Source of the DNA: Clostridia bacterium | GTDB lineage: Bacteria > Bacillota > DAOUPZ01 | Direction: 5' to 3' | Assembly (NCBI GenBank): GCA_030625885.1 | Contig: DAOUPZ010000021.1 | Coordinates: forward strand, 1 to 64,000 | Length of the DNA stretch: 64,000 nt | Part shown: positions 17,132 to 64,000 of the stretch, one piece after another | Position numbering within the stretch: position 1 is the first letter of the stretch | Layout of the letters: the number at the start of each line of letters is the position of its first letter | Made by a program: the position numbers and the translations under genes | The notes under the pieces: model-generated | Seen by the model: only the letters and a program-made list of their open reading frames with translations | Databases searched by the model: none | Told to the model about the DNA's origin: nothing

Positions 17132-18874
17132 CTACTCCATCTTCAGTTTAAAAGAGATATAGTTAATTCCCGAAATCCGGATATGGCTGACTTCCTGCCC
17201 CATCTTGCTTAATAATACCAATCCTAGCTGATCCAGTTCCTCCTGAGTGGCAAGAGTCATATCTTTTGCTGCTTCGATCCTATCAATCTCATCAGCCGTA
17301 GACCGATCCTGTACTTCCACCGCAATGCCATCCTCTTGCTGAATGAAGGTAAATAAAGTATGATTGCTCAAGCCCTCTTTTTGCTGTATATTGCAAAGAT
17401 AAATAAATACCTCCTCACATAAAAGCTGGAGATTAAGTACCAATTTGTGAGTCAGTTTAAAGCTTTTTTCCATTTCACTGATAAATTCATTCAGTTCTTC
17501 CAAAGCCCCTGTCTCTGACTTTAACTTTAGGTTTAATCTGTGTTTAGGCATTAACTGAAACAGAAAACTTAAAAGAAAGGCAACTGTTCCCCCGGTAGCA
17601 ATTCCATTATTCAGTAAAGGCGCTAAAGCAGGTGGAATAAGGTTTGGAAAAAAGAGATTGTTTTGTGCCACAAACCCCGACCAAAAAGATAAACCGATAA
17701 TCAAAACAGATTGATAATTGACCCCTGAAAGCGTTGCGATCTGAATCCCAGTCACAAAGAGCATCGCTTGAAAAATAAGCATAGATGCTCCCAGTACCGG
17801 CTGGGGTATATTAATAATCAGCATGCTCAGTTTAGGGAAAAAGGCCAGAAAGGCAATAATCGCCGCACCAAACATGCCCACCTGGCGGGAAGCAACCCCC
17901 GTCAACTCAACCATCGCAATATTCCCAGAAAAAGTAGTGTTAGGAACTGTTCCAGCTAACCCTGCCATAAAATTCCCAATCCCATCAGAATAAAGACTTC
18001 CCTGCACACTTTCATAGTCAATCTTTTTAAAATTACGCAGTGATACACGCTGAATGGCCATCGCATCCCCCACGGTTTCTACTGATCCGACAATAGTTAC
18101 AATGATAAAGCTAAGGAGCAATGGTAAATATTCCCTTTTAAGCTCAAATTGAACCCCCGGCCAGCTTCCTCGCGGCAAACCAAAGAACGCTGCTTCCCGG
18201 ACAGAAGATAGATCAACCCTACCTAAAAAAGCAGCCAAAATATACCCTAATATAATCCCAATAATAGGTCCCCACAAACGAATGGTTTTATTACCATAGA
18301 TGGACGCCCCTAATATGATTATGAACGTCACCAAGCCTATCAACAGATTTTCTATAGAGCCATACGCCGGACTTCCGGGTTGCCCCACCCATAAACTAAT
18401 AGCAATAGGAACCAGCGTAACTGGAACCAACATAATCACCACCCCGCCCACCGCAGAGGTAATGATTTTCCGCAAACGTCCAAGAAAATAGGAAAATAAA
18501 AACTCAATGGGAGCCGCCAGCATTGACATAGTAGCCACCAAAGCAAAGCCACCCAGTTCCGCCGCTGAAAGGCTACAGGCCAAAAACGCCCCAGACGTCC
18601 CCATAAACAAGGTATACCCTGAACCAATTTTTCCAACTCGTACTGATTGTATCAACGTCGAAATACTAGTTACGATCATGGACGCAAATACGATATATTC
18701 TATTTCTTGTGCCGGAACATGGACGGCATTAGCAATAATAATCGGTACAACAACAATGCTGCTATAAATCGTCAGCACATGCTGCAATGCCTGAAAAATA
18801 GTGATCATTACAGGTGGCTTTTCATCTACAGCATATAAAAGTGTTCCCGCTTGCTTTGCTTTATCCAATTTCAT
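17132..18874 (-). CDS. NCS2 purine/pyrimidine permease fused to an RsbW-like domain
   Basis: A 580-residue protein. Residues 1 to about 440 form a complete uracil-xanthine permease (NCS2) with about 12-14 helices and the family motif NTTFSGNIAMVELTGVASR. After a short linker, about 457-580 resemble an HATPase_c_2 (RsbW/SpoIIAB) domain: an N-box-like LLCEEVFIYLCNIQ with Glu487-Glu488 but Tyr where the Mg-binding Asn should be, no clear DxGxG box, then the QLGLVLLSKM stretch (549-558) and a final beta strand. It is therefore probably not an active kinase. It closes the peptide-export operon, 70 bases behind the second exporter gene. Substrate not determined. Confidence 0.85.
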   Translation of the reverse strand: MKLDKAKQAGTLLYAVDEKPPVMITIFQALQHVLTIYSSIVVVPIIIANAVHVPAQEIEYIVFASMIVTSISTLIQSVRVGKIGSGYTLFMGTSGAFLACSLSAAELGGFALVATMSMLAAPIEFLFSYFLGRLRKIITSAVGGVVIMLVPVTLVPIAISLWVGQPGSPAYGSIENLLIGLVTFIIILGASIYGNKTIRLWGPIIGIILGYILAAFLGRVDLSSVREAAFFGLPRGSWPGVQFELKREYLPLLLSFIIVTIVGSVETVGDAMAIQRVSLRNFKKIDYESVQGSLYSDGIGNFMAGLAGTVPNTTFSGNIAMVELTGVASRQVGMFGAAIIAFLAFFPKLSMLIINIPQPVLGASMLIFQAMLFVTGIQIATLSGVNYQSVLIIGLSFWSGFVAQNNLFFPNLIPPALAPLLNNGIATGGTVAFLLSFLFQLMPKHRLNLKLKSETGALEELNEFISEMEKSFKLTHKLVLNLQLLCEEVFIYLCNIQQKEGLSNHTLFTFIQQEDGIAVEVQDRSTADEIDRIEAAKDMTLATQEELDQLGLVLLSKMGQEVSHIRISGINYISFKLKME

Positions 18875-53831: not shown

Positions 53832-55405
53832 CCTTGTTTTGACACCTCCTTCAAATGCGATCCCATAAGGATCCCCTGTTCCTGTACGTCTGAAGGTTGA
53901 TCTAAATGTCCTCCCATCAAGGCTCCCAGCTTTTGCATATCTAAATTTTCATCATTATTCATAATACCCACAATTTGCCCTCCGAACATGACAGCGATCT
54001 GATCAGACAAAATCAGCACTTCTTCTAGATCTGCGGATATCAACAGAACACTCTTATTACTATTTCTCATCTCTGAAAGAAGCATCCTTACATTTTCTGT
54101 TGCCCCAATATCAAGCCCTCTCGTAGGTTGGGAAACAACAATTAGTTCAGGATTTTCATATAATTCACGGGCCAGTATAACCTTTTGTTGATTTCCACCC
54201 GATAGGAGTTTTACGTCTGTTGTCGTATTTGGTGTTTTTATGCTATATGTTTTAATGGCGTTATCTGCCATTTTTATGATCGATTGTCTATTAAGAACTA
54301 AATGCTTTGAAAATGGCTCTTTTTTATAAGAACGCATCATCAAATTGTGTGATACGTCAAGATCCATCACCAATCCATCTTTATGGCGATCATCAGGTAC
54401 ATACGCTATACCTCGATTAAAACGCTCTAAGACGGTTCTTTTATTGATGCTTTCACCACTAAAAACAATTTCTCCATCATCACATTTTCTAATACCGGCA
54501 ATTATATTAGCCAACTCATTTTGTCCATTTCCATCCACGCCTGCAATACCTATTATTTCTCCTCTGTGAATATTAAGGTTAATATGATTAAGCTTTGTTT
54601 CAGATTTCTCTTTCAGTGTTACATTCTTAATACTAAGTAAAAGCTCTCCTTTTGTCTTAACGTCATTTTTTGTCGTATCATCTTTTAGTTCTCGACCAAT
54701 CATGTAAAGTGATAATTCATGAGGATTGGTTTCATTGGTTTTTAGTGAAACCACATTCTTACCATCACGCAAAATGGTGACTCGATCACTGACCTGCATA
54801 ATTTCAGACATTCGATGCGTTATAATAATAATTGCATGACCTTCTTCTTTTAATTTTTGTAAAATATCAAAGAACTCATCTGTTTCCTGTGGGGTCAGCA
54901 CAGCTGTGGGTTCATCAAAAATCAAAAGCTTTGCCTCTCTGTAAAGTGATTTTAATATTTCCACCCTTTGCTGCTCCCCCACCGAAAGCTCGGAAATCCT
55001 CTTATAAACGTCAATCGCCAATCCATATTTATTTGAAAGCAGTTTAATTTGGTTGGTAATTTTTTTATAGTCAATGAAAGGATACCCCTTTGGCTTTAAG
55101 CCTAATATGATATTTTGCAGCACGGTCAGCGTCTGAACCAACATGAAGTGTTGATGAACCATCCCAATCCCTGCTTTAATCGCCTTTCTGGGAGAAGAAA
55201 AGAATACCTTTTTATCATTAATATATATTTCGCCTTCATCTGCAGAATATAGGCCATATAGAATATTCATCAGTGTGGTTTTACCCGCCCCGTTTTCACC
55301 AAGCAAAGCAAGTATTTCACCTTGGTCTACTTCTAATGATACATTTTTGTTGGCGATTACACCTGGAAAGAACTTGGAGACCCCTTCCATTTTTAAAAAA
55401 GCCAT
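53828..55405 (-). CDS. nupO: Nucleoside ABC importer ATPase, double domain
   Basis: A 525-residue protein with two ABC domains. The first has GENGAGKTT, LSVGEQQRVEILKSL and LIFDEPTAVLT. The second has a degenerate Walker A (GVDGNGQNE) but an intact LSGGNQQKVILAREL, as normal for this sugar/nucleoside ATPase subfamily. GGGAGG precedes the ATG. It is separated from the binding-protein gene by 172 bases with a terminator-like hairpin, so it is probably made in smaller amount. Confidence 0.9.
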   Translation of the reverse strand: MAFLKMEGVSKFFPGVIANKNVSLEVDQGEILALLGENGAGKTTLMNILYGLYSADEGEIYINDKKVFFSSPRKAIKAGIGMVHQHFMLVQTLTVLQNIILGLKPKGYPFIDYKKITNQIKLLSNKYGLAIDVYKRISELSVGEQQRVEILKSLYREAKLLIFDEPTAVLTPQETDEFFDILQKLKEEGHAIIIITHRMSEIMQVSDRVTILRDGKNVVSLKTNETNPHELSLYMIGRELKDDTTKNDVKTKGELLLSIKNVTLKEKSETKLNHINLNIHRGEIIGIAGVDGNGQNELANIIAGIRKCDDGEIVFSGESINKRTVLERFNRGIAYVPDDRHKDGLVMDLDVSHNLMMRSYKKEPFSKHLVLNRQSIIKMADNAIKTYSIKTPNTTTDVKLLSGGNQQKVILARELYENPELIVVSQPTRGLDIGATENVRMLLSEMRNSNKSVLLISADLEEVLILSDQIAVMFGGQIVGIMNNDENLDMQKLGALMGGHLDQPSDVQEQGILMGSHLKEVSKQG

Positions 55406-55524
55406 CTGCTTATACCTCCCAAATCATTTCACATTAGAAAACTCGGCTAAAACTGCAACCTTCAGACTGCAGCTCAAGCCAAGTTTTTTATATACACCTA
55501 TACGTTGTCATTTGATAAAAAAGT

Positions 55525-55555
55525 AAAATAGGAGGAATAGCATTCCTCCTATTTT
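55525..55555 (-). terminator. Intercistronic terminator after the nucleoside-binding protein gene
   Basis: AAAATAGGAGGAA and TTCCTCCTATTTT pair around a five-base loop, followed on the minus strand by ACTTTTTT. It lies between the binding-protein and ATPase genes of one operon, so partial read-through is likely. Confidence 0.85.
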
Positions 55556-55577
55556 GTTCCTTAATACAATGCATGAC

Positions 55578-56579
55578 TTAGTTGGTTATTTCTACAACAT
55601 CTGGAACAACCACTTCACCACTAATAATTTTAGATTTAAGGTCAGCAATTTTATCCTTTACTTCAGCAGGTATTTTATCTTCAAAGCCATTGTAGGGCGC
55701 AATATCAATAACCCCTTCCTTCATACCCAACTCATGTATACCGCCTTCAAATGTACCATCAATGACATCCTTTACAGCTGCCCTAATCAATATTGGCACA
55801 TTATAAACCGTGCTACACATAACTGTGTTTTCAGATATAACGTTCTGGTCATAAGAATCGCCTGTTGCTAAAAGACCGTTTTCCTCAGCGGCCTTAATAA
55901 CACCCATACCTGCCTGATTGGCACAATGTGATAGAACATCAGCACCACCATTAATCATAGCCATCGCGGCTTCCTTTGCTTTTGCAATATCAGTAAAAGA
56001 ACCTGTATAAGCTTGAGCAATTTTTATATCTGGATTCACTTCACGCGCACCAATCTTATAACCTTCTACAATTTTAATAAGGGAAGGCCCTTCCAATCCT
56101 GATACCATTCCGATGCTGCCTGTTTTTGACATGCTCGCTGCAAGAACCCCCATCAGATATGATCCTTCTTTACATTTCATAGCATACGAAGCAACATTTT
56201 CTCCCTCAGCTGTCGCTTCTATACAAACAAACTTAGTATCAGGATATTTTTCTCCAACTTTTAAAGCAGGATCACCAAACTGGAACCCATGACCGATAAC
56301 CACATCATACCCTTGAGCAGCATAATCCGTAAATACCGCTTCCATATCCGTAGCTTGTACATTTTCTGTGTATGAAATTTCTGCACCAAATTCTTCTTCT
56401 ACAACCTTAAGTCCTTCATAAGCAACCGCATTCCAGCCACCATCATTAGCGGGCCCGGTTAATGCCAGTGCAACCTTAACCGACGCATTCGCTTCTCCTG
56501 CTGCATTCTCTGAACTACCGCATCCAGTCACACCAAAAATCATACATACAACCAATAAGCTTACCAAAATCTTTTTCAT
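55578..56579 (-). CDS. nupN: BMP-family nucleoside-binding lipoprotein
   Basis: A 333-residue lipoprotein. The signal ends in a lipobox (GVTGCGSSEN, Cys20). The mature part is a BMP/PnrA-type domain: VALALTGPANDGGWNAVAYEGL at its start, the GHGFQFGDPALKVGEKYPD loop, ASMSKTGSIGMVSG and VLSHCANQAGMGVIKAAEENG. PnrA-type proteins bind purine nucleosides. A guanine-type riboswitch (56686-56824) lies upstream, which supports guanosine or another purine nucleoside as the ligand. GGGGGTAGACG precedes the ATG. Confidence 0.92.
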   Translation of the reverse strand: MKKILVSLLVVCMIFGVTGCGSSENAAGEANASVKVALALTGPANDGGWNAVAYEGLKVVEEEFGAEISYTENVQATDMEAVFTDYAAQGYDVVIGHGFQFGDPALKVGEKYPDTKFVCIEATAEGENVASYAMKCKEGSYLMGVLAASMSKTGSIGMVSGLEGPSLIKIVEGYKIGAREVNPDIKIAQAYTGSFTDIAKAKEAAMAMINGGADVLSHCANQAGMGVIKAAEENGLLATGDSYDQNVISENTVMCSTVYNVPILIRAAVKDVIDGTFEGGIHELGMKEGVIDIAPYNGFEDKIPAEVKDKIADLKSKIISGEVVVPDVVEITN

Positions 56580-56685
56580 CGTCTACCCCCATATTTTTTA
56601 TTTTATTTTTATGCATTTGCTCATATAGCATCATGCATATACAAACACAATAAAAATCTAGCATAACCTATATCTCAATCACTAC

Positions 56686-56824
56686 AAAAAAAACTCCCCA
56701 TTTGACATGAGGAGTTTTTTGTATGTAAAAACACATACTACACACAATAAACATCCTGTAGTCTGTAAATTAAGGTTTACAGGTAGAAACTTCCGAACCA
56801 AATTATCGAAATTATACATGATGT
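56686..56824 (-). promoter_or_regulatory. Guanine-class purine riboswitch with terminator
   Basis: Aptamer at 56751-56824: P1 arms ACATCATGTA and TACAGGATGT (one mismatch), then the conserved TATAAT, the TTTGGTTCGGAAG loop, GTTTCTACC and a P3 hairpin with CCTTAA loop, then GACTAC. The C after GACTA is the ligand-pairing base of guanine/hypoxanthine sensors (adenine sensors have T). A terminator (AAAAAACTCC and GGAGTTTTTT, 56688-56720) follows, so ligand should switch off the transporter operon. Confidence 0.93.
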
Positions 56825-56956
56825 TGAAAATACATTATAATGAAATTTATTATATCTCACAATCTGTATTTATCAATATTAACTTTTATTGTACAAGAAC
56901 AACCCTATAATATAATAAAGGGTATAACTTGTCAATAAAAACTATTTCAGTAAATT

Positions 56957-57048
56957 TTAATTCATAATTTCTTTAACTCTACCTACAATACCGTTTTCAA
57001 GCATTACTTTTATGCCATGAGGATGGGTGTAGAAATTTGCGTTTTTAA
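56957..57048 (-). pseudogene. Remnant of a YwbE-like gene
   Basis: The minus-strand frame just after the ygiQ stop reads NANFYTHPHGIKVMLENGIVG and then RVKEIMN before TAA. This matches the conserved C-terminal part of the small YwbE (DUF2196) family, where THPHGIKV.LE.G.VGRV is typical. The N-terminal half, with the KQDQRTGKLT-type motif, is missing, and no start codon or ribosome site is present. The frame is open back into the ygiQ gene without similarity. Confidence 0.65.
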
Positions 57049-57050
57049 TA

Positions 57051-58979
57051 TTAACTTCTTCTAGCTTTATTTTTATTATTCTTTCTGCCCCCATCTTTTT
57101 GTTTGTTTTGTTTAGGTCTATATTTACTACTTGTTCCTTTTACTTTCCCTTTACCCTTACTGTATTCTTTATTATTTGTCTTCCCTTTTGGCTTTATTAA
57201 ACACTTTGGTCCTAAACCAATCAGATCTTTTCTATTCGCTTGGGTTAAAGCAGCATATACCAAATTATAATTTTGAGGGCTTCTATACTGAAGTAAAGCT
57301 CTTTGCATCGCTTTTTCATTTTTGCTTTTAGGAATATAAACTTCCTTCATCGTTAATGGATCTAACCCAGTATAAAACATCGTTGTTGATAGTGTCCCCG
57401 GTGTTGGATAAAAATCTTGAACTTGTTCGGGTTGATAGTGAATATCTCTTAAATACTCGGCTAATTCTATGGCTGCTTCTAATGTGCTTCCAGGATGACT
57501 TGACATTAAATACGGTATAATATATTGTTTTTTCCCTATGCTTTCATTTATTTTATAGAATTTTTTCATAAATCTATCGTAAGTATTCCCTGCTGGTTTT
57601 CTCATGAACTTCAAAACTTTAGGGGAAATATGTTCGGGTGCCACTTTTAATTGCCCACTGACATGATGCATAATAAGTTCTTTAAAAAATGTATCATCCT
57701 TGTCGGCCATAATATAGTCATATCTTAATCCTGAACGTACAAAAACCTTTTTAACATTAGGCAATTTCCTTAATTTTTTAAGTAATTCTAGATATTCACT
57801 ATGATCTACGTCTAAGTTTTTACAGGGTTTAGGATATAAACATTGCTTATTTTTACAAGACCCCACTTTTAGTTGGTTCCCACAAGCAGGGTATCTAAAA
57901 TTAGCAGTGGGACCCCCTACATCATGAATAAATCCCTTAAAATCCTTATGTTTTGTAATTTCTTTTGCTTCTGCTAATATTGAATCCTCACTTCTGCTTT
58001 GTACAATTCTACCTTGATGAAATGTTATAGCACAAAATGAGCAGTTACCAAAACAACCTCTGGAACTTACTATGCTAAATTTAACTTCTTCTATAGCAGG
58101 TATTCCCCCTAAGTTTTCATAAATGGGATGATAATTTCTTTGGTAAGGCAGTGAATAAACCTGATCTAACGCTTCGCGGTTTAAGGGCATTTCTGGTTTA
58201 TTTTGTACAAGGTACTTGTTTGTATGCTTTTGTACTACCGTTCTACCTCTAATAGGGTCTTGCTCTTCGTATTGTATTTTAGATGCTTGTGCATATTTAT
58301 ATTTATCCTCACATACTTCTTTATACGAGGGTATTTCAATATAGTCATATACATTTTCTAAATCAGCTATAAGATAACACGTCCCGGGTATATGCCTAAT
58401 ATATTGTATATCTAATCCATCATTTAAATTATTTGCGATTTCAATAACTTGTTTTTCACTCATGCCATATACTAATAAATCTGCCCCACTATCAATTAAA
58501 ATAGATTTTCTTACTTTATCACTCCAATAATCATAATGCGCAAATCTTCTTAAGCTAGCTTCAATTCCCCCAATTATAATAGGTATATCTTTATATGCCT
58601 CTCTTATTTTATTACAATAAACAATGGTTGCTCTATCTGGTCTTAATCCCATTTTACCACCGGGAGAATAAAGATCTTTTTTCCTTAATTTTTTACTTAC
58701 TGTATAATGGTTAACCATCGAATCCATGTTCCCTGCATTGACCATAAAACCCAATCTAGGTACGCCTAGCTTTATAAAATCATCTATGCTCTTCCAATTA
58801 GGCTGCGCTATTATTCCTATTCTATATCCTGCATTTTCTAAAACTCTAGAAATAATTGCCGTTCCAAAACTATGATGATCTACATACGCATCCCCTGTGA
58901 CTATAATAAAATCTAATTCATCCCAGCCCCTATTTATCATGTCTTGTTTGCTTATTGGTAAGTATTGATTATTTGTCAC
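57051..58979 (-). CDS. YgiQ-family radical SAM protein
   Basis: A 642-residue iron-sulfur enzyme. The radical SAM motif [10 protein letters not shown] (CxxxCxxC) is near residue 320, with SSRG before it. The N-terminal UPF0313 part has [22 protein letters not shown] (here VTGDAY...), and the C-terminus ends in a Lys/Asn/Gly-rich tail typical of the family. It makes a 5'-deoxyadenosyl radical; its physiological reaction is not established. GTG 58979 follows AGCAGGTGAAAGC. The gene end runs straight into a ywbE-like remnant, which may mean that the C-terminal tail was formed by a deletion fusion. Confidence 0.92.
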
Positions 58980-59545
58980 GCTTTCACCTGCTTACATATT
59001 GTTATAATTATTAGGATCTAGTTTATGCCATTTTATTATCATACAAGTATAACATATAAAACTAAAATCAACCAAAGGACTTACAATCCTAATACTTGAT
59101 ATTATTATAAATGCCATTTTGTATTATAAAATTCTTCTTTCCTATAGCTTGTGTATTTTGACATCCGTTTACACTGCAGATATTAAATTTACCAATAAAA
59201 TTTAACGGATTAAGCCATAATATCACTTAATCCGTTTATCAATTTCCACTGATAACTTTTCTTATTTCTAAATATATCTTGACATTCCTTAAAATATTAA
59301 AAGCCGCCGTTACTTGTGGTACGGTTCACCGTATCGTTGAACTGGCGGTTTTTTACGGAGGTTAACATACATTTCTTTTTTATATCACCAATGCCAAAAC
59401 AAAAGTAAGTGAAGAATCTTCATCATCTAAAAATTATTCACCTACATATGAGTCAAGTTATTTTGAAGCGTTGCCTACGAATGGCCGAAACGCTGACGCC
59501 GCGTGAAAGTACTATGACTGCGCTTGCTGTGTTACAAATGGCAAT
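58980..59545. other. Intergenic region with hairpins and a decayed frame
   Basis: About 565 bases between ygiQ and the amino-acid-type importer. It contains a hairpin (AACGGATTAAG and complement, 59204-59236), repeat copy 1 (59301-59356), and a plus-strand open stretch (about 59385-59498, reading KVSEESSSSKNYSPTYESSY and on to NGRNADAA) with no start codon, whose end is locally GC-rich. No intact gene is visible. Confidence 0.55.
59301..59356. repeat. Hairpin repeat flanking the importer operon, copy 1
   Basis: CCGCC...GGCGG outer stem with an inner TACGG/CCGTA stem and T-run on the plus side (A-run on the other). It is the same as 62351-62402 except for one base in the 46-base core. On the minus strand it lies after the solute-binding protein gene and may terminate it. 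Confidence 0.88.
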
Positions 59546-60379
59546 TTACTTTCTTACCAAAAAAGATACACCATCATATGTATAATATGGCTTTGTACCG
59601 ATCCAATTATTGTTTTTAAGTTCCTCAAGGAAAGCAACTTTATTTGCTTCAAAATGACAGAAAATCACATCAATTTTTTTACTGCCCAGAGCTGTAAATC
59701 GCGCTTGGGTTTCAAGTGATACAAACTCAAAATTAATATTCAATAATTTTCCGATTTCTGTAAGGATTGCAACATTATAACCTGCCGGTCGCCCGTCTGC
59801 TGCTATGTAGTCAAGCGGCGCCATATCTCCGCATACGCCAACATAAACAGTTTTAGCGCCTTCAATTTTGGGAATTTCTTTATTTACAGGTTCGTTATCT
59901 GCTGGTAAATTAGTTATCCATTGATCTTCCAATGTTTTCAATGTTCCATTTTCTTGCAAAGCTGTGATTGCTTCATCCAAATCCTCTTTTAATTTTTGGT
60001 CTTCACTACGAACTGCCATAATAATGCTACCTAGAGAATTTCTGTTTGATTCTATTATTTTCAAATTATCATTTCTTTTTAAATGATAATTTGTAACAAA
60101 TGACGGAGTCAAAACTGCATCAATTTTCCCGGTTATTGTAGCCGTTACACCATCCGAGTATCTATTAAAATAAACTACTTGCCCTGGCTCAGCTTCAATT
60201 AAGTCTGATATCATTGCTTCAATATTTTCTGTTGATGCAGCGGGTGAAATCATACCAATAACTTTACCTGCCAAATCCGAAACATTTTCAATTTTTTCTG
60301 TGCTTTCACCACCGCAACCTACCAAAAGCATTGCCATAACCATACTGAGTATAAGTAAAAGTATTGATTTGTTTTTCAT
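59546..60379 (-). CDS. Solute-binding lipoprotein with circularly permuted SBP_bac_3 fold
   Basis: A 277-residue lipoprotein (lipobox AMLLVGCGG, Cys22). The order of the family 3 binding domain is swapped. Residues about 33-165 match what is normally the second half (VSDLAGKVIGMISPAASTEN, FNRYSDGVTATITGKIDAVL, and the usual terminal LKEDLDEAITALQENGTLKT). Residues about 178-277 match the normal first half (KTVYVGVCGDMAPLDYIAADG, YNVAILTEIGKLLNINFEFV, KKIDVIFC and a final SFLVRK). It serves the ABC importer encoded just upstream on the same transcript (permease, then ATPase, then this gene). An amino acid ligand is likely. Confidence 0.85.
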   Translation of the reverse strand: MKNKSILLLILSMVMAMLLVGCGGESTEKIENVSDLAGKVIGMISPAASTENIEAMISDLIEAEPGQVVYFNRYSDGVTATITGKIDAVLTPSFVTNYHLKRNDNLKIIESNRNSLGSIIMAVRSEDQKLKEDLDEAITALQENGTLKTLEDQWITNLPADNEPVNKEIPKIEGAKTVYVGVCGDMAPLDYIAADGRPAGYNVAILTEIGKLLNINFEFVSLETQARFTALGSKKIDVIFCHFEANKVAFLEELKNNNWIGTKPYYTYDGVSFLVRK

Positions 60380-60390
60380 ATGTATTCCCC

Positions 60391-61485
60391 CTATAATTTA
60401 ATATTTATTTTGTTTCGGCCATTTTCAAATAGATGCTCGTGTTTCTTTGATATTTTGCTTACAAGTACCATCCCTAAATTATCAATATCATTACCACCAT
60501 ATTCAAATGGATTAAAATCATCTGCCCGATAAGTTAAATAGATGGAAATTTCATTATTTTCATCTGAATACTCTATTGCAAACGCCATGTCAGGCTGTGC
60601 GCCTTCATAGCATTGTTTAAATATTTCCATCATTAGTTCTTCCAGTAAAAGCTGTATATGATACACCTGTTTTGCCCTCACATTATACTTCTGACAAAAA
60701 ATTTCAATTTGGGCGTTCATACTCACCATATCAAAACCAGTAGACTGTATTTCATAATTAAATATTTTCAGTTTTCTGATAAAAGCCTTTGTTTTTTCCT
60801 TCTTCGGATTGTCAAAAATATCGGCAGGCGTTCCATCTTCATAAATTCCACCTTCGTCCATGTAAAATACACGATCGGCTACGTCTTTTGCAAAGTTCAT
60901 TTCATGGGTAACGATTAACATGGTAAGCCCCATTTTCGTAAGCTTTCTAATAATTCCTAAAACCTCGCAGGTCATGGTTGGATCAAGCGCTGATGTCGGC
61001 TCGTCAAACAACATAATTTCAGGTTCCATGGCCAGGCATCTGGCAATAGCAATTCTTTGTTGTTGTCCTCCCGATAGTTCGCGAGGATAGCTTTTGGCTT
61101 TGTCAATTAAACCAACTGTTGACAGAAGCTCCCGAGCTTTTTGTTTTGCCACATTTCTATCTTGTTTTTTGACCCATATTGGCGCCAACGTAATATTTTC
61201 CAAAACATTTAAATGGGAAAATAGATGAAATCCTTGATACACCATACCCATTTTTTCACGAATTTGATTTAGATTAATTTCTTTTTTGGTTATGTCTGTT
61301 CCATTTATGCAAATAGTGCCCCTATCCGGTTTTTCAAGCATGGCAATAGTACGAAGAAACACACTTTTACCGGTGCCAGACGGACCTATAACTGCGATAC
61401 ATTCCCCCTTATTAATTTGTACATTGATGTTTTTAAGCACTCTCAATTCTCCAAATTGTTTTGATAAATCACTAACTTTAATCAT
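60391..61485 (-). CDS. Amino-acid-type ABC importer ATPase fused to an RsbW-like domain
   Basis: A 364-residue protein. Residues 1-240 are a complete GlnQ/HisP-type ATPase (GPSGTGKSV with Val at the last Walker A position, LSGGQQQRIAIARCL, MLFDEPTSALDP). The usual length is 240. About 248-364 is an added HATPase_c_2/RsbW-like domain: IQLLLEELMMEIFKQC with Glu282-Glu283 but Glu in place of the Mg-binding Asn, a YRADDFNPFE segment at the DxGxPFDP position, DNLGMVLVSKI (335-345) and a final NKINIKL strand. It is probably inactive as a kinase. It overlaps the permease gene by four bases and precedes the binding protein by 11 bases. Confidence 0.88.
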   Translation of the reverse strand: MIKVSDLSKQFGELRVLKNINVQINKGECIAVIGPSGTGKSVFLRTIAMLEKPDRGTICINGTDITKKEINLNQIREKMGMVYQGFHLFSHLNVLENITLAPIWVKKQDRNVAKQKARELLSTVGLIDKAKSYPRELSGGQQQRIAIARCLAMEPEIMLFDEPTSALDPTMTCEVLGIIRKLTKMGLTMLIVTHEMNFAKDVADRVFYMDEGGIYEDGTPADIFDNPKKEKTKAFIRKLKIFNYEIQSTGFDMVSMNAQIEIFCQKYNVRAKQVYHIQLLLEELMMEIFKQCYEGAQPDMAFAIEYSDENNEISIYLTYRADDFNPFEYGGNDIDNLGMVLVSKISKKHEHLFENGRNKINIKL

Positions 61486-62162
61486 ATTGCTTCACCTCGC
61501 TTTTTCCCAATTGAAAATAGGGCATATACGAGATATGACAATCCTAAATAAAGCAGGATCCCAAAAAACAGCGGAAAAAACGGATCGCCTGTTCGTGCGC
61601 CAATGTTATTTACAGTACGTGTTAAATCTGTAATGGTTATATAACCTACCACCGATGTCCACTGAATTATATTGATAATGGTACTTTGATAAACTGGTTT
61701 TGCAATTTTCCCTGCTTGTGGCAAAGTGATTGCAAAAAATGCTTTTGTTTTAGAAAAACCCAACATTCGTGCGGCCTCTAATTGCCTTTTATCAACAGCT
61801 TCAAGTGCCGAACGCATAACTTCTGCAATATGTGCGCCACTGTTTAGAGCAAAGGCGATCACCGCAATAATCACCGGATCAATTCTGCTTTCAGCAAACG
61901 CAACGTAATAAAGTATCATCAACAGAAGTAGTACCGGACTGCCCCGAAGTACCGCTATCATAAGCTGTGAAATTCTTTTAAGGCCTGTTATTTTAGACAT
62001 CCTAAAACAACATAAAATTCCACCCAGAATCGTACCAAACAGTAATCCTAAAGCTGATATTAAAATAGTGACCCGAAGTCCTTTTAAAACAATTAAATAA
62101 GCATCTCCGGCAATTAAGTTTTTCTGAAATGAAGTTATTATTACTTCAAGAAAACTGTTCAT
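61482..62162 (-). CDS. Amino-acid-type ABC importer permease
   Basis: A 226-residue permease of the HisM/GlnP family with five helices and the EAA motif region LEAVDKRQLEAARMLGFSKTKAFFAITLPQA (about 128-158). Full length. It is the first gene of the three-gene operon, with GGAAAGGAAGG before the ATG, and overlaps the ATPase gene by four bases. It should work as a homodimer. Confidence 0.92.
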   Translation of the reverse strand: MNSFLEVIITSFQKNLIAGDAYLIVLKGLRVTILISALGLLFGTILGGILCCFRMSKITGLKRISQLMIAVLRGSPVLLLLMILYYVAFAESRIDPVIIAVIAFALNSGAHIAEVMRSALEAVDKRQLEAARMLGFSKTKAFFAITLPQAGKIAKPVYQSTIINIIQWTSVVGYITITDLTRTVNNIGARTGDPFFPLFFGILLYLGLSYLVYALFSIGKKRGEAI

Positions 62163-62494
62163 GCGTTCCTTCCTTTCCCTGCCCTCTAGAGGTTGCCTAG
62201 CATAAAAAAATCAAATTCTTATGCAAATATAAGATATTAATTCTAACTCATTAGTCGAAAAGCCTCTTTATTTAGCATAATTTAGCAAAAATAATTACTT
62301 ATTGGTAACAATCTCTGCTGTTTAGCAATGCCAATAGGGAGCAATTAAAAACCGCCGTTACTTATGGTACGGTTCACCGTATCGTTGAACTGGCGGTTTT
62401 TATTAGTAACTTATATCGAAAAAACTTGGCAAAAGTATTATTGTCAATTCAACTTTTATAGCCCATTCTTACACTTCTTTTCCATTTGCAAGCC
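62163..62494. other. Intergenic region with repeat copy 2
   Basis: About 330 bases. It holds the hairpin repeat 62351-62402 and otherwise AT-rich sequence, which should contain the promoter of the importer operon near 62180-62300 (not placed). No gene seen. Confidence 0.5.
62351..62402. repeat. Hairpin repeat flanking the importer operon, copy 2
   Basis: Same 46-base core as 59304-59349 with one change (A for G), same orientation, also followed by a T-run. It lies after the helicase gene (minus strand) and before the importer promoter, so the importer operon is framed by direct repeats about 3.05 kb apart. Confidence 0.88.
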
Positions 62495-64000
62495 CTACCT
62501 AATTAACTCAATTTGAACCTGGATTCTCCCATAACTATCTGGAGGATTGGGCGGAGTAATCTTACGAATTCTACATTCATATTTATAACCTCTATCTAGG
62601 TATGTTGAAATATAGCTTGCATATTGTCTTTCAATATATCCAATTTTATTGTTGTAAACGGTATAAACCTCTACTGCATATGGGTCAAACTTATTGTCAG
62701 ATTCTCTTTTTAAAACCAATTTATCGCTTTTTTCGAGATTATATACAAATTTATATCTACCTTCATAAAACACGCCTACAACTTTGGCTGTAATGGTTTT
62801 TATACCTGCTTTCCTCAATTTCAATATCTTGCTATTATATTTAGTTTTATTTCTTATCTCAGTTATTCTACTTAGAGAGTAATCATCAAGAGAATAGTCA
62901 AATATCTTCATAATGTCTTCTGTCATTAGTTCACAGAACCACTTCTTAAAGGTTTTGTATTCATTCGGCATTTCTTCAGAAATATAATACTTTGCTAATA
63001 TTTCAGCTATTATTCGATTTTGTATGCCTAAAGAACAAACAAAAATCGCTGTTATATCATTGACACCATATTTTACCTTTGAAGCAATATACTTATACTC
63101 AGGCAAATAATAAGATAAGTCATAATTATTTTCTACAAAAGTGTGCTCTAATATCTTAATAAACGAATGAATACCCCAAGGTGCTTTCTGAATAAATGTT
63201 TTGTTAACAAAATTATAGAACTGCATATCTTTTTCAAATAAGAAGAAATCTTTAATATCCTCTAGAGGAGAATAGTTTATCCACTTTATAATTGCATCAG
63301 AAAGTTGATAAGATTCTTTTAAAGAAACATGTTCAAAAGATGGCTTTAGTTCATTTGCTGAAAAGCTAATATCAACAATCTTTCCTAAAATTTCTTCAGC
63401 GTCTAGTCCTTCATCGATAATTATACGCATTAATTCTATTGCCTGATTCTCTAGTGTCTCGCAACTTTCAATGTTTAAGCCTGTAGAGTAATATTCCTTC
63501 AGCTTTTCTTTACTATATTTCTCGCTAACATCTTGTATGTATCCAAAAAGATTAGTTGCTATATCTTCTATTAACTCATCATCTTCACTCACTTCGTAGT
63601 AAAGTAATGTCTCTTTAAAAAAGTTAATGAGTTGAGTAACGTTTTCATCATCAACTATTTCTTCACATAAAAGTGCGACTAATTGTGAAAGTAAACTCTC
63701 TAAATTATTTTCATGATGCTCTTCATACCCATTATATATTTTATTTACATCAAATCTTTTAGAAAGTGCATCTTTCATTATCTTATAATATTCTTTTGAA
63801 TTCAGCAATAAGCTCGAAAATGCAGAAACAGAGGCTTCAATATTTTGAGGGTTTTTATATTTTTCAAACAAAGTAAAATGTGGTACAAATATTACATTTC
63901 CCTCGGTTGACCGATATGCTCGCCCTGCTCTTCCACAGATATTCCAATAATCTTTTACTGTTAGATTAATTTCTGTTTGCTGGTCTCGATAATGATTTAC
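62495..64000 (-). CDS. Ski2-like helicase with C-terminal HIRAN domain, partial
   Basis: The last 501 codons of a gene entering from the right edge. The frame is open through TTG 63871 to the window end. The first residues contain a helicase motif VI-like YWNICGRAGRAYRSTEG, as in Ski2/HelY-like DExH helicases (QxxGRAGR). A long helical region without family hits by eye follows. The last 100 residues form a HIRAN domain (about codons 395-501, ITAKVVGVFYEGRY and then SDNKFDPYAVEVY), which binds DNA ends. It is likely a DNA-repair or anti-phage helicase. Motifs I-V lie outside the window. Confidence 0.85.
   Translation of the reverse strand, partial: VNHYRDQQTEINLTVKDYWNICGRAGRAYRSTEGNVIFVPHFTLFEKYKNPQNIEASVSAFSSLLLNSKEYYKIMKDALSKRFDVNKIYNGYEEHHENNLESLLSQLVALLCEEIVDDENVTQLINFFKETLLYYEVSEDDELIEDIATNLFGYIQDVSEKYSKEKLKEYYSTGLNIESCETLENQAIELMRIIIDEGLDAEEILGKIVDISFSANELKPSFEHVSLKESYQLSDAIIKWINYSPLEDIKDFFLFEKDMQFYNFVNKTFIQKAPWGIHSFIKILEHTFVENNYDLSYYLPEYKYIASKVKYGVNDITAIFVCSLGIQNRIIAEILAKYYISEEMPNEYKTFKKWFCELMTEDIMKIFDYSLDDYSLSRITEIRNKTKYNSKILKLRKAGIKTITAKVVGVFYEGRYKFVYNLEKSDKLVLKRESDNKFDPYAVEVYTVYNNKIGYIERQYASYISTYLDRGYKYECRIRKITPPNPPDSYGRIQVQIELIR

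Follow-up and report, generated by a model that had tools for sequence, protein, structure and literature searches.

A gene in the window, i.e., the whole 64,000-nucleotide stretch of Clostridia DNA that was analysed, encodes a solute-binding protein (SBP) in which the two halves of the SBP_bac_3 domain stand in swapped order. We read this protein, with a probability of roughly 0.8, as a natural circularly permuted SBP_bac_3 lipoprotein that is the receptor of the ABC importer encoded in the same operon. Judged from its sequence, it is a permuted variant of the family and not an ordinary member. Permutation recurs within the family and keeps company with an RsbW-like domain carried by importer ATPases, and both observations go beyond what the initial annotation of this DNA had claimed.

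Swapped halves in a three-gene operon

The SBP gene is the last of three genes in a tight operon on the minus strand, after those for a permease (61482-62162) and an ABC ATPase (60391-61485). The permease and ATPase genes overlap by 4 bases, and a gap of 11 bases separates the ATPase gene from the SBP gene. When the operon was scanned for promoters and terminators, the counts came close to the shuffled mean. The features are as follows:

59546-60379, minus strand: SBP gene, 277 amino acids, with ATG at 60379 and stop codon at 59548-59546 (open reading frame reading)
60317..60379, minus strand: signal peptide (residues 1-21), then lipobox Cys22 (LLVGCGG); motif found by eye, without a signal-peptide tool
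59909..60298, minus strand: 'C' half, residues 28-157, lobe 2 and C-terminal helices, placed first (TIGR01096 positions 121-250; half-profile C 1-117 at residues 34-155; strands and helices of the model)
59855..59908, minus strand: linker, residues 158-175, between the former C-terminus and the former N-terminus (gap between the two profile matches)
59549..59854, minus strand: 'N' half, residues 176-277, N-terminal lobe 1, in second place, with the hinge strand as its end (SBP_bac_3 positions 3-68; half-profile N 2-84 at residues 179-267)
60394..60765, minus strand: C-terminal domain of the ATPase, RsbW-like, with Glu in place of the N-box Asn (EELMME) (PF13581, E 0.0051; hhalign with RsbW, E 8.6e-11)
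60766..61485, minus strand: GlnQ/TcyN-like ABC ATPase domain in the operon of the SBP (PF00005, 8.5e-38; NF007027 GlnQ, 5.9e-87, below cut-off)
61482..62162, minus strand: permease of the polar-amino-acid type (PF00528, 5.8e-16; TIGR01726 above cut-off)

The SBP is thus a predicted lipoprotein. The initial annotation had placed the normally C-terminal half of SBP_bac_3 first and the N-terminal half second, and the Pfam, TIGR01096 and PDB alignments agree on this order. Pfam SBP_bac_3 (PF00497) matches the protein with an E-value of 2.7e-19 and 69.7 bits, above the curated cut-off of 26.4, in two stretches, the better of which places residues 180-245 on profile positions 3-68. With TIGR01096 (E 1.2e-24), residues 28-155 correspond to positions 121-250 of the 250 in the model. 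In the PDB sequence match 4zv1, residues 27-155 are equivalent to 106-231 of the chain and residues 177-242 to 11-76. The profile and PDB alignments hence show the normally C-terminal part first and the N-terminal part second; the native order of lobe-1 N half, lobe 2 and C-terminal helices is not kept, with C observed at 34-155 and N at 179-267. The halves are complementary and map to non-overlapping regions of the profile, which excludes that they are partial repeats of the same half. Chance, a frameshift and misassembly were ruled out, since the same order is found in an ortholog (G306, L010), which has 54-55% identity to the window SBP and the same operon, and in many further proteins. As a control, a native-order SBP of the same window (row window_30681) was called native by the same procedure. 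This SBP-like protein is encoded elsewhere in the window and forms a long branch in the tree described below.

The AlphaFold2 model (pLDDT 87.7, pTM 0.82), made from an alignment of 23 proteins, all of them permuted, contains every element of a two-lobe SBP, arranged in the permuted order. The predicted fold is complete, but its topology is not the normal one: the strand order is permuted and corresponds to that of 2b4l, an OpuAC-like glycine-betaine SBP. The top two Foldseek matches to the model were OpuAC of B. subtilis, which also gave the best rows with VIA-align 2. For 2b4l, 220 residues were aligned in order, model 22-277 on 5-259, with Z 12.3 and rmsd 4.5. The OpuAC entries aligned over 208-220 residues across the chain (Z 10.9-12.3), whereas ordinary amino-acid SBPs aligned in order over only about 165-185 residues (Z 10.4-11.3); since the Z margin of OpuAC over the other rows is only about 1 unit, weight is put on the aligned length. 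A native-order protein (L090) was modelled without an alignment and reached pLDDT 36.8, and the fold search was thus made without a native-sibling control. OpuAC fits the window protein best in the order of its elements but belongs to another sequence family. The glycine-betaine SBP model, which we take to be PF04069, was not listed for the window protein at E-values up to 1, with the reservation that weak matches may be filtered. Circular permutation among glycine-betaine SBPs is reported in the CPSARST paper (PMC2395249).

A solved example of a natural permuted lipoprotein SBP is TpMglB-2 (Tp0684) of Treponema pallidum, termed 'Type Ic / Cluster Bc' (PMC4990184). According to that paper, TpMglB-2 bound glucose and changed shape, and relatives exist in gut Gram-positives (PMC4990184); thus, a permuted SBP can work. 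The window protein resembles TpMglB-2 in being a lipoprotein SBP with a natural circular permutation. However, TpMglB-2 is a sugar SBP of type I, cluster B, whose cut lies inside the N lobe and which has a fourth crossover, whereas the window family is SBP_bac_3, cut at the hinge and with several independent cuts in the family. In sequence the window protein is not a TpMglB-2-like sugar SBP, since its best Pfam and NCBIfam matches are amino-acid SBP models. The literature found on permuted SBPs consists of TpMglB-2, the glycine-betaine case and engineered permutants. No report of natural permutation in SBP_bac_3 was found among the listed titles and abstract openings of the open-access literature, which leaves most subscription papers outside.

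Relatives, cut points and repeated origin

Of 398 sampled genomes from the phylum of the window, with only 6 candidates scored in each, 33 have a match at E ≤1e-25. Permuted proteins were read from open reading frames in 12 of the 398, including the genome of the window itself, and the ATPase search added one further genome (G206); this number is a lower bound. The window subfamily, group I, occurs in 3 of the 398. A contig scan of named genomes found no relatives with the single window protein as query, and at least 71 loci with alignment A2 (one degenerate pattern; not a survey). Permuted SBPs were found in Selenomonadales, Anaerovibrio, Lachnospiraceae, Oscillospiraceae, Ruminococcus and Synergistota, largely from rumen and gut. 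In 16 such genomes, 57 of the 64 window-protein matches, among the matches listed, cross the C-N junction. Among the matches listed, a Synergistaceae genome has 20 matches, another Synergistales genome 13 and a Selenomonadales genome 7, the Synergistota numbers being those of the single genomes behind the loci. The window subfamily is thus multi-copy in rumen Synergistota and Selenomonadales. Permuted SBP genes also form tandem arrays, with five consecutive genes on contig 117 of G401. Runs of 3-5 such genes are seen in rumen Synergistota (L109, L111, L115, L116 and L117), and no ABC transporter lies alongside the arrays of L109 and L115. In Synergistota and Selenomonadales, many copies of group I have no transporter genes near them, and some of these lone copies may be sensors.

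All loci gathered together contain 161 distinct SBP-bearing frames, of which 65 are permuted, 95 are native and 1 is cut by a contig end. Relatives of the order read in the window protein thus exist in numbers. The loci were collected with permuted queries, so the 65:95 ratio gives no prevalence. The permuted frames comprise 51 CN, 2 CNC, 8 CN-permease and 4 tandem CN chains (the pairing of units in the tandems is unsettled), and the native ones comprise 93 NC, 1 NC-permease and 1 NCNC. Tandem NCNC (L035) and CNCN-permease proteins are both present, and one long chain of 1260 amino acids (L112) reads CNCNCNCN-permease. On a contig labelled as a Bacteroidaceae MAG, a triple CNCNCN-permease is encoded (L045:4188-7172); this operon type was otherwise seen here in Bacillota and Synergistota, and either transfer or a binning error may be asked about. 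The genome of the window has a second operon of like type, apparently with one gene cut by contig ends: the start of contig C27 (L007) carries a signal peptide and a C half, and the end of C32 (L006) carries N-C-N-permease and an ATPase with an RsbW-like domain. The joining of the two ends rests on geometry only.

Judged from the alignments, permuted SBPs have at least three cut points. In most of them the cut lies at the hinge. A second point follows the first lobe-2 helix (L012, L015, L016), and a third is in the middle of lobe 2 (L048:1507-2352). In L028 and L029, the cut is shifted by a few residues. The C half of diverged group-I members begins late in the profile; since the starts line up in alignment A3, this is ascribed to divergence and not to an extra cut.

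A quick maximum-likelihood tree was built with both halves in native order, from 51 permuted and 47 native rows (98 in total, reduced from 165 units by leaving out any row that shared >70% identity with one already kept). Some long rows were flagged in this tree. Before the AU test window_30681 was removed, which left 97 rows. With window_30681 the tree needs 11 label changes, at least 4 of which are forced by well-supported branches, and without it 10. Grouping of the permuted rows into a single clade is rejected by the AU test (p 3e-51, 97 rows). A single origin of all permuted SBPs is hence rejected for the 51 permuted rows, and it is also rejected for 48 rows, when the three rows cut in lobe 2 are set aside.

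The strongest single case is a permuted protein of 267 amino acids (G079) and a native one of 254 amino acids (G115), which form a syntenic pair in different genera of one GTDB family, with an identity of about 80% half by half (82% for N and 79% for C). The common neighbours, named by eye, are comF-like genes before, and a permease gene and a ribosome hibernation factor-like gene after. The third genome of this GTDB family has neither the permuted nor the native gene. For the permuted proteins of group II, native relatives reach an identity of up to 67%. By inference, permutation probably arose when a gene was duplicated in tandem and the copies fused, after which the leading N half and the trailing C half were lost. 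Tandem chains of the NCNC and CNCN types, which could be the starting material, are present among the loci. A natural circular permutation is mostly regarded as a rare and ancient event; here, one widespread family has apparently been re-cut several times, and the native and permuted pair at about 80% identity makes the origin and the cost of permutation testable on near-identical natural proteins. Domain searches that rely on order under-describe such receptors.

Binding pocket and proposed mechanism

Amino-acid SBPs presumably clamp their ligand with an Asp of lobe 2 and an Arg of lobe 1 that follows the T-E-E motif. In the alignment with 4zv1, the Asp of ordinary amino-acid SBPs corresponds to Pro91 of the window protein. 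The Arg is without a counterpart; the sole Arg in the last 36 residues is R276. The window protein thus lacks the amino-acid clamp, and its subfamily is also without the usual clamp residues. Titles of LAO entries in the PDB show D11, Y14, S72 and D161 as mutated positions. Group I keeps D185, D190 and nearly R227, and group-specific residues are conserved across its 19 proteins. In group II, many permuted relatives keep both clamp residues and the usual motifs. From this loss it is inferred, on sequence alone, that the ligand of the window protein is probably not a standard amino acid, or else is bound in another way. GlnPQ/HisJ/LAO-type amino-acid SBPs, which we take to be cluster F, belong to the same sequence family in both halves and work with the same type of permease and ATPase. 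The window system differs from them in the swapped order of the halves, in the missing Asp and Arg of the clamp, and in an ATPase with an RsbW-like domain.

From the predicted fold, the new termini would be placed where the hinge is first crossed. From the anchor, the chain would run through lobe 2, the second hinge and the C-terminal helices of lobe 1, and then through the linker into the rest of lobe 1 and the hinge strand. The two-lobe clamp would still close on its ligand, with the lipid tether and the C-terminus both near the hinge and not on lobe 1. The permease would move the ligand and the ABC ATPase would drive transport. The RsbW-like extension would most likely be a regulatory dock for a partner-switching protein of the STAS, RsbW or RsbU type. 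Sequence and computation support the swapped order, the complete predicted fold, the operon, the relatives, the several cut points, the multiple origins and the association with the RsbW-like domain; ligand binding, transport, the regulatory role and the route by which the permutation arose are inferences.

The RsbW-like domain and rival explanations

The initial annotation also put an RsbW-like ATPase in the operon, which proved right in substance: the last 124 residues of the window ATPase are related to RsbW with an hhalign probability of 97 (E 8.6e-11). PF13581 (HATPase_c_2) matches 8 of 9 such domains, at best with 9.3e-06; the value for the window, 0.0051, is below cut-off. A PDB sequence search with the profile of the domain gave one match only, at E 0.32, which has no meaning. 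An N-box Asn and a G1-box Asp, residues assumed here to hold Mg-ATP in RsbW-type kinases, are missing from the window domain, which has the motifs EELMME and TYRADDFNPF. Only 3 of the 15 fused domains retain the N-box Asn, and the extension is mostly degenerate, with its ATP-binding residues largely lost.

Full-length fused ATPases number 14 distinct proteins. Twelve are encoded beside a permuted SBP and one beside a contig-cut SBP (C32, in the genome of the window); the remaining one (G360) has no SBP nearby, and its genome has two permuted orphans. The fifteenth is part of a 916-residue chain in G245. In total, a permuted SBP is adjacent or fused in 13 of the 15, and a native SBP is adjacent in none. 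The domain is absent from all 52 ATPases that neighbour a native SBP, and 18 ATPases beside permuted SBPs are also without it. For four fused ATPases (one in G206, and two plus the 916-residue chain in G245), the query was the domain only and not an SBP. The 916-residue protein (L158:2112-4859) is a whole ABC importer in one chain, permuted SBP-permease-ATPase-RsbW-like, and because it joins all four parts they are considered to be functionally tied. A precedent for a partner-switching-type domain acting on an ABC ATPase is MlaF-MlaB, in which a STAS protein is bound to the ATPase (PMC7367683). There, STAS is a small protein of its own on a lipid transporter, whereas in the window the amino-acid-type ATPase itself carries the RsbW-like domain. 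A fusion of an RsbW-like domain to an ABC ATPase was not found among the listed titles and abstract openings of the open-access literature, most subscription papers being outside it.

The swapped order could instead be that of a decaying remnant of a tandem N-C-N-C fusion that lost its outer halves and has no working clamp. The NCNC and CNCN-permease proteins would supply its raw material, and the canonical pocket residues are indeed lost. However, the signal peptide and lipobox are intact, the operon is tight, the ortholog at 54-55% identity has the same order, group-specific residues are conserved in 19 proteins, genomes hold many copies, and the fold is confidently predicted, so that a remnant is considered very improbable. 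It is also improbable that the protein is an obligate domain-swapped dimer, each clamp being built in native order from two molecules. Nothing in hand excludes such a dimer, as the prediction was of a monomer only, but the single chain is predicted with confident and complete strands and helices, and a single-chain fusion of C-N-permease-ATPase exists.

Another possibility, doubtful but not to be dismissed, is that the system is a signalling receptor first, in which the SBP reports its ligand through permease and ATPase to the RsbW-like domain and a STAS partner is then captured or set free by that domain, with transport secondary or absent. Gene neighbourhoods speak for it: one gene run (G408) contains RsbU (with dCache, HAMP and SpoIIE phosphatase domains), RsbW, STAS, three permuted SBPs, a permease and a fused ATPase; in G400 (L117), an RsbU-like and an RsbW-like gene come, in the same order, ahead of three permuted SBPs and a permease (without a Pfam scan); a divergent STAS gene adjoins the operon of G133; and there are orphan SBP arrays. 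Against this, the ABC domain and permease resemble those of ordinary importers, neither a STAS nor an RsbU gene was seen in the flanks of the window operon (open reading frames of 55000-64000, without a profile scan), and there are no data on partner binding. Conservation of STAS at every operon was rejected as a rule, since L111:16859-17353, taken for STAS by eye, matches the cobalamin adenosyltransferase family. The reading of the window protein as an importer receptor may be extended, only tentatively, to an import-and-signal class of ABC systems with permuted SBPs (single, tandem or permease-fused) and an ATPase carrying a degenerate RsbW-like domain. Ligand capture would be reported to, or gated by, a STAS/RsbW/RsbU circuit, and the tethering at the hinge that comes with permutation would enable this coupling, hence the presence of fused ATPases here only with permuted SBPs. 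If the RsbW-like link is functional, nutrient import would be joined to partner switching in anaerobic gut bacteria.

Attachment of RsbW-like domains to transporters is, going by profile matches, a wider habit. In the window itself, a xanthine/uracil permease (17138-18874, minus strand; PF00860, 1.7e-58) has a C-terminal HATPase_c_2-like domain (E 0.00084). MATE transporters of L144 and L133 have an RsbW-like domain fused to them, and the profile of the domain also matches an EamA protein (L111:6820-8625) and dicarboxylate symporters (L121:5122-6762 and L041:5749-7401). At L120:4490-5728, a protein of 413 amino acids with phosphatidylglycerol lysyltransferase-like and STAS domains is encoded directly after a permuted SBP.
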